From: a virus
Length of the DNA stretch: 20,681 bases
IMG/VR virus record: IMGVR_UViG_3300025132_000388
Location: 1-20,681 of that record
Reading direction: 5' to 3' (one strand)
The position numbers were made by a program, and so were the translations under genes. Below the pieces are notes generated by a model. The model searched no databases and was not told the DNA's origin. It saw only the letters and a list, made by a program, of their open reading frames with translations. Numbering within the stretch: position 1 is the stretch's first letter; each line of letters starts with the position of its first letter. Below are positions 678 through 909 of this stretch, in pieces.

Positions 678-684
678 CGACACG

Positions 685-737
685 TCCGTTCATCCCTTAT
701 GGGACGCATGACCACTAAGCATGGAACGGGGCTTAGT
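685..737 (+). promoter_or_regulatory. Glutamine-riboswitch-like element, Downstream-peptide type, with pseudoknot
   Basis: Seen directly: CCGTTC (686-691) pairs perfectly with GAACGG (724-729), forming P1. TCCC (693-696) pairs with GGGA (701-704) around a TTAT loop, forming P2. ACTAAGC (714-720) pairs over 7 bp with GCTTAGT (731-737) just downstream of P1, forming a pseudoknot. CATG 707-710 could also pair with CATG 720-723. This order (P1 enclosing P2, with a pseudoknot whose 3' strand lies beyond P1) and the CGTTCATCCC..GGGACG core recall the glnA/Downstream-peptide glutamine riboswitches of marine cyanobacteria and their phages. Those of the second type precede short peptide genes, as here. 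The pseudoknot ends 4 nt before the GGAG of the 17-codon gene, so ligand-dependent control of its translation is a reasonable inference. The GGAAGTAGG segment I remember from glnA-type aptamers is absent, so the subtype call is from memory. Confidence 0.75.
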
Positions 738-741
738 ATAT

Positions 742-745
742 GGAG
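742..745 (+). promoter_or_regulatory. Shine-Dalgarno site of the 17-codon peptide gene
   Basis: GGAG sits 6 nt before the ATG at 752 and 4 nt after the 3' strand of the riboswitch pseudoknot. This is one of the clearer ribosome-binding sites in the window and is the main reason to treat the tiny gene as real. Folding of the pseudoknot would place a helix directly beside it and could hinder ribosome loading. Confidence 0.65.
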
Positions 746-751
746 ATAACC

Positions 752-805
752 ATGAAAGTTACTTTCGTATATCGTGGCGTTGCTTACACAAGAATAATCG
801 GTTAA
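752..805 (+). CDS. 17-residue peptide downstream of the riboswitch
   Basis: Seventeen codons starting with ATG at 752, preceded by GGAG at ideal spacing, encode MKVTFVYRGVAYTRIIG and end in TAA at 803-805. Downstream-peptide riboswitches are known for preceding short genes of about 17 codons or more. The YRGxxY motif resembles the N-terminus of small cyanobacterial proteins (MKxxYRGVxY, as in DUF4278), here apparently cut to its minimum. No function is known to me. Candidates are a small regulator of host nitrogen metabolism, or a leader peptide whose translation controls folding of the RNA that begins 3 nt after its stop. Its codons for Arg-Ile also hold GAATA (792-796), which could pair with TATTC (832-836), so ribosome passage would alter that pairing. 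Confidence 0.65.
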   Translation: MKVTFVYRGVAYTRIIG

Positions 806-807
806 GC

Positions 808-897
808 GGTCTGGGAGGTGCAAGTCCTCCCTATTCAATTTGGCTCTTTGCCCTCTACGGAGGATACCAATTAGCCGTCTAGACGGTGGGATAGACC
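808..897 (+). ncRNA. Predicted structured RNA domain, four-way-junction-like
   Basis: Pairing read by eye: a closing stem GGTCT (808-812)/AGACC (893-897) encloses three hairpins. The first is GGGAGG (813-818)/CCTCCC (826-831) with a 7-nt TGCAAGT loop resembling a tRNA T-loop. The second is AATTtGG (837-843, T841 bulged)/CCAATT (867-872), enclosing CCTC-TACG-GAGG (852-863), whose c(UACG)g is a UNCG-class tetraloop. The third is the perfect palindrome CCGTCTAGACGG (875-886). It is not a tRNA: it lacks an anticodon arm, a 7-bp acceptor stem and CCA. It could be part of the untranslated leader of the capsid gene, a processed small RNA or a second regulatory domain. The family is unknown to me. 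There is no start codon at a usable distance from its two GGAGG sequences, so these appear to be stem strands rather than ribosome-binding sites. Confidence 0.55.
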
Positions 898-909
898 ACA
901 AATATCAAT

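Follow-up and report, generated by a model that had tools for sequence, protein, structure and literature searches.

Glutamine-II riboswitch aptamers ahead of one-unit DUF4278 micropeptide genes are nearly universal between psbA and the capsid gene of the marine cyanopodoviruses sampled

The window, meaning the whole 20,681-nucleotide stretch of viral DNA that was analysed, is the 20.7-kb psbA-to-tail region of a T7-like cyanophage. It is close to P-SSP2/P-SSP3, with 92% identity over the aligned part of positions 390-1100. The features between psbA and the capsid gene are as follows.

2-397: 3' end of psbA
390-677: 95-aa open reading frame (ORF) between the psbA 3' end and the aptamer
684-737, plus strand: glutamine-II riboswitch aptamer (Rfam RF01704, hand-mapped nucleotides, P1/P2 covariation in relatives)
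687-691 and 724-728, plus strand: pseudoknot helix, CGUUC with GAACG
693-696 and 701-704, plus strand: P1, UCCC with GGGA
705-708, plus strand: ligand strand CGCA
714-720 and 731-737, plus strand: P2, ACUAAGC with GCUUAGU
707 with 729 and 721 with 730, plus strand: long-range pairs C707:G729 and A721:G730
742-745, plus strand: GGAG Shine-Dalgarno (SD) sequence, 6 nt before the ATG and 4 nt after P2; an SD is found in most relatives
752-805, plus strand: 17-codon YRG (DUF4278-type) micropeptide gene, MKVTFVYRGVAYTRIIG; ATG at 752, TAA at 803-805
792-836, plus strand: anticodon-less tRNA-like element (from sequence and relatives), overlapping the end of the micropeptide ORF and not part of the riboswitch
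792-796 and 832-836, plus strand: its acceptor-like stem, GAAUA with UAUUC
797-800 and 807-810, plus strand: its D-like stem, AUCG with CGGU
813-818 and 826-831, plus strand: its T-arm, GGGAGG with CCUCCC, loop UGCAAGU
840-899, plus strand: capsid-leader RNA core upstream of the capsid gene (covarying helices, no Rfam family)
842-844 and 874-876, plus strand: capsid-leader helix H1, GGC with GCC
852-855 and 860-863, plus strand: capsid-leader helix H2, UACG loop
875-886, plus strand: capsid-leader palindrome
886-889 and 896-899, plus strand: capsid-leader helix H4
980-2296: capsid gene

An earlier, sequence-only reading had proposed a glutamine-riboswitch-like RNA in front of a 17-residue peptide and had suggested a covariance search with two Rfam models. 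An Rfam scan of the window returned a full-length match to RF01704 (Downstream-peptide) that scored 48.7 bits (E 2.9e-9; gathering score 33), and this Glutamine-II match at 684-737 is the sole one above cut-off. The glnA model (Glutamine-I, RF01739) reached just 19.4 bits in the window, below its cut-off of 35, which assigns the proposed RNA to the Downstream-peptide class. RF01704 RNAs lie in the 5' UTR of short ORFs of 17-100 codons, and the ORF at 752-805 has 17 codons plus a stop. The ligand-site bases were assigned by hand on the crystal-structure numbering of PMC6698751. All named nucleotides are present, namely C687 (C1), G688 (G2), G706 (G18) and C707 (C19), and A721 (A33), C727 (C39), G728 (G40), G729 (G41) and G730 (G42) are also intact, with A721:G730 corresponding to A33:G42. 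Judged by its sequence, the aptamer belongs to a known riboswitch class and is an ordinary example of it. The GGAG at 742-745, four bases past P2, and the 17-codon ORF were found as first described. The helices of the sequence-only reading are likewise all present, but their labels had to be changed: its 6-bp P1 is the pseudoknot helix (counting C686:G729), its P2 is P1, and its 7-bp pseudoknot is P2. Three further candidates were rejected. In the window, CAUGG 720-724 could pair with CCAUG 750-754 around the start codon to give an OFF state, but relatives do not keep this pairing. The upstream ACGUC-C can alternatively form a hairpin with GGACG; ACGTCC/GGACG is common, at 64 loci, and no compensatory changes were seen in it. 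A frameshift-element match at 806-831 on the minus strand is at chance level (E 0.24).

A pattern scan of viral contigs gave at least 120 aptamer loci, and nearly all matches listed with enough flank map to cyanopodoviruses, in the interval from psbA to the capsid gene. RF01704 also scored above cut-off, at 39.9-59.2 bits, in nine more phage records from isolates or metagenomes: P-SSP3, P-SSP7 (48.1 bits), P-GSP1, S-RIP2, NATL2A-133, NATL1A-7, S45-C4, S05-C849 and S28-C3. The P2 stem averages 6.62 bp, as compared to 3.74 bp after the 3' strands were dealt among the 90 unique sequences; the maximum of 200 such shuffles, which leave relatedness in place, was 4.13 bp. Independent change in P2 is clear because its stem sequences are many and different. 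P1 variants that keep pairing include UCCC/GGGA, UCGC/GCGA, UCCAU/AUGGA and ACC/GGU, among others. The P1 and P2 helices of the phage aptamers, as relabelled, are thus kept by the compensatory change that had been looked for among relatives.

Loci were also chosen by their capsid protein to escape the bias of an aptamer pattern; this sample leans to close relatives since it was drawn from the best 80 of 587 confirmed matches. At least 600 nt of upstream sequence was available for 61 of these loci. Aptamer and in-phase YRG ORF occur together in 50 of them, six retain the ORF next to a damaged aptamer that has lost or changed its 5' part, and neither was seen in five; the aptamer core is exact in 47. 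The aptamer-peptide module is nearly universal in the marine cyanopodoviruses sampled, and the sensor in a structural-gene operon, which the sequence-only reading had called unusual, turns out to be the arrangement in nearly all those examined and no peculiarity of a single phage. The six loci that retain the ORF with an aptamer lacking its 5' strand or C1 indicate that the switch is dispensable in some phages.

In five loci (L300, L304, L308, L317 and L280) a YRG ORF and an intact 3' aptamer half are found, but the 5' pseudoknot strand, which lacks C1, is lost or altered and has fused with the upstream gene. These aptamers may be decayed switches or altered-ligand variants.

The window peptide, MKVTFVYRGVAYTRIIG, is a single YRGVxYTK beta-hairpin unit of 17 residues. 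A YRG(V/I)xY(T/K) ORF begins 23-32 nt past the aptamer core in nearly all matches listed, where 116 of 118 phage YRG ORFs start with ATG. The ORFs span 13 to 79 codons and keep their reading frame, and a Tyr stands three residues after the Gly of YRG (+5 from its Tyr) in 84/84 unique phage windows. Single changes were counted by nearest-neighbour comparison of unique phage ORF stretches: outside the YRG codons they are 91 synonymous to 44 nonsynonymous (67% against 23% expected, p about 1e-27), where neighbours are not fully independent, and across the whole YRG stretch 74% are synonymous against 24% expected. This third-position excess shows the peptide to be under protein-level selection. 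That the short ORF is untranslated and conserved through RNA structure alone is scarcely credible: the ORF is short and is left unannotated in P-SSP7, P-SSP2, P-SSP3 and P-GSP1, but the synonymous excess, the near-constant ATG and the frame kept across such different lengths speak against this reading. The 3' end of the ORF, stop codon included, shares nucleotides with the acceptor-like and D-like stems of the tRNA-like element (752-805 versus 792-810), and therefore C-terminal peptide residues may be RNA-constrained.

Two peptide architectures are found in phages, a hairpin alone of 13-20 aa, to which the window peptide belongs, and a form of about 33-39 aa with an N-terminal helix. The AlphaFold model of the long form features a helix at residues 3-20 and strands at 21-24 and 27-30 (pLDDT 81). 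The YRG ORFs of L021, L055, L084, L103, L105 and L127 are without a Shine-Dalgarno sequence and carry a conserved (G)TACGAAC just before the ATG.

In cellular genomes the same aptamer pattern turns up in Prochlorococcus and Synechococcus, where the proteins encoded behind it mostly have two or three YRG units. A YRG protein follows in 81/119 cellular-genome matches; nearly all of the remaining matches come from bacteria that are not picocyanobacteria, which makes them a built-in negative control. The host two-unit form, MTLIYRGQKYVQNKEAAKKQHNELTYRGKAYTS (33 aa), is found as the Yfr6 peptide of PMC1242208 and PMC2518516. The three-unit forms of 55-57 aa match DUF4278 (PF14105), with E values of 6e-11 and 7e-8 for host proteins, and a three-unit protein was modelled with moderate confidence (pLDDT 73) as hairpin-helix-hairpin; the search found no solved structure for the family. 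Phage long forms align to DUF4278 profile positions 33-57 or 41-57, which is the last unit, with 14.4-17.9 bits (E 0.004-0.05), below the Pfam gathering cut-off of 25.3. Two other phage forms gave no match to this profile, and neither did the 17-aa peptide when padded with X, its own length being less than the 20-residue search minimum. Hosts and phages have in common the YRG motif with a Tyr three residues after the Gly, behind a glutamine-II aptamer, and in the phage peptides of 13-79 aa nothing but the YRG unit, in some cases plus a helix, is seen. The window peptide is not an orphan; it is a single DUF4278 YRG unit that resembles the final unit of host proteins, the Yfr6 peptide among them, and this family is known behind the aptamer in host picocyanobacteria. 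We infer that the phage gene is probably a reduced host gene that was carried with its riboswitch.

The region between the micropeptide gene and the capsid gene features two additional RNAs. ARAGORN found no tRNA in the window, so the element at 792-836 is only tRNA-like. At the same place a full tRNA-Gly stands in NATL1A-7; by locus, it is annotated in L007 (6254-6324) and recognised by anticodon-like sequence only in L047, L064 and L125. The capsid-leader RNA at 840-899 is followed by the capsid gene in 181 of 182 pattern matches with enough downstream sequence, and it is found in 69/69 capsid-anchored loci with at least 260 nt upstream (from the best 80 of 587). Its GGN/N'CC pairing holds in 130/130 and uses five kinds of pair. 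The loop is of the YNMG type, and the three loop-proximal pairs of H2 hold in 130, 130 and 129 of 130, with between two and five kinds of standard pair. A near-invariant palindrome, CCGUC-UA/AU-GACGG, lies downstream of H2, and the 5' neighbour is either the tRNA-like T-arm element (69) or a CACCUC hairpin with CACCUCAGAGUCGGAC (93). Among 50,697 phage records the capsid-leader RNA was found in only 30, from cyanophages or marine uncultured phages. No Rfam family matched it and no description was found in the literature searched, which left most subscription journals outside; 840-899 is apparently a second, independent and undescribed structured RNA. It may help to process or stabilise the capsid mRNA, though this is a guess. 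In nearly all relatives the palindrome is CCGTC-(TA, AT, nothing or TATA)-GACGG with a self-complementary centre, L101 being the exception; that this centre is kept hints at a duplex, dimer or DNA-level role and not a simple hairpin loop.

The window ORF ends within the tRNA-like element, about 35 nt ahead of the capsid-leader core, as might be expected if the aptamer and small ORF were a leader-peptide or operon switch, in which glutamine-dependent translation of the small ORF mainly controls the downstream RNA and the capsid gene. This explanation is improbable. Between 70 and 1,319 nt separate the aptamer from the capsid-leader core, sometimes with other genes in between, and such variable spacing makes control of the capsid by the switch unlikely. 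The capsid-leader RNA is present in 5/5 loci without aptamer and YRG ORF, and conservation of the small ORF at the amino-acid level argues that its product matters. The placement that the sequence-only reading described as a sensor inside a structural-gene operon is probably incidental to capsid control, because as much as 1.3 kb, with additional genes, may separate the peptide from the capsid leader.

The explanation that best fits these results, with a probability of roughly 0.6, is that a cis-acting, glutamine-ON translational riboswitch drives a host-derived, stripped-down DUF4278 micropeptide that would act on host nitrogen regulation through a putative target. A review (PMC6316151) states that class-II aptamers bind L-glutamine and that the Prochlorococcus version activates expression once bound; further literature support comes from PMC2864571, beside PMC6316151 and PMC6698751. 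High glutamine in the infected cell would stabilise the pseudoknot beside the GGAG, so that more peptide is made. The peptide, equivalent to the last beta-hairpin of the host protein, would then occupy the partner of the host YRG proteins and so mimic or compete with host nitrogen control during virion production. The leading candidate for this partner is glutamine synthetase or its regulation, because the DUF4278 family covers the N-terminus of the inactivating factor IF17; the assignment is uncertain because in Synechocystis IF17 can inhibit without its DUF4278 part (PMC6316151).

Accessibility modelling of the translation start gave a mixed result; with the aptamer formed, the SD is more open in 44/93 and the AUG less open in 47. 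This result, the ORFs kept with damaged aptamers in six loci and the phage classes without any Shine-Dalgarno sequence would agree with a peptide that is the selected product of an inherited leader, constitutively expressed from an RNA that no longer switches. Such a loss of switching is unlikely, given that the ligand-contact bases of the window are intact, that the core is exact in 47/61 capsid-anchored loci and that P1 and P2 are maintained by compensatory change.

Host expression studies bear on the riboswitch-driven peptide as well. Yfr6 drops on nitrogen depletion (PMC1242208). Early in phage infection of MED4, Yfr14, the antisense RNA of Yfr6, increases, as does an antisense RNA to a Yfr6-like ORF (PMC2518516). 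P-SSP7 carries both the aptamer and an unannotated YRG peptide. It is also reportedly the phage used in that MED4 infection experiment. Together, the response of Yfr6 to nitrogen, the antisense rise and the P-SSP7 module would fit a replacement or override of host YRG peptides in the infected cell. Because the ligand is glutamine, these viruses probably read the nitrogen state of the host, and they may adjust it. A bolder version, which we regard as rather doubtful, is that cyanopodoviruses near-universally deploy a glutamine-triggered decoy, whose one-hairpin DUF4278 form blocks the partner of the host two- or three-hairpin regulators, so that the host keeps assimilating nitrogen when phage activity raises glutamine. 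Nitrogen limits much of the ocean where these phages multiply. If the riboswitch-driven peptide acts as proposed, nearly all sampled T7-like cyanophages, including the model phage P-SSP7, would carry a sensor and regulator that read host nitrogen directly, and the long-open question of the role of DUF4278/Yfr6 peptides, and of their targeting by phages, is now testable in P-SSP7 and MED4.

Phage-borne glutamine aptamers have also been reported in T4-like cyanophages, Melnitz and the Pelagibacter phage Mosig; the Melnitz aptamer resembles glnA and is located in the 3' domain of its tmRNA gene. A literature search, with most subscription journals outside it, found no description of a glutamine aptamer driving a YRG peptide in T7-like phages, and both the placement in nearly all these viruses and the single-unit DUF4278 micropeptide are new to the literature so covered. 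DUF4278 (PF14105) proteins, including the N-terminus of IF17, share the YRGxxY beta-hairpin with the phage form, which retains the last unit only and has no apparent IF7-like inhibitory part. The phage RNA is like RF01704, the type 2 glutamine riboswitch of marine picocyanobacteria, in its covariance model, its ligand-site bases and its place before a short YRG ORF; however, it resides in a virus, in nearly all sampled cyanopodoviruses, with a one-unit peptide behind it, and its linker from CGCA to P2 is typically of the CAUGA type whereas hosts mostly have the CAGUUCGA type. A further parallel is the Yfr6 RNA of Prochlorococcus with its 33-aa peptide, which likewise combines the aptamer with a short YRG peptide; the Yfr6 peptide has two YRG units, whereas the phage peptide, which in some forms carries an N-terminal helix, has a single one, and the phage copies precede the capsid gene.
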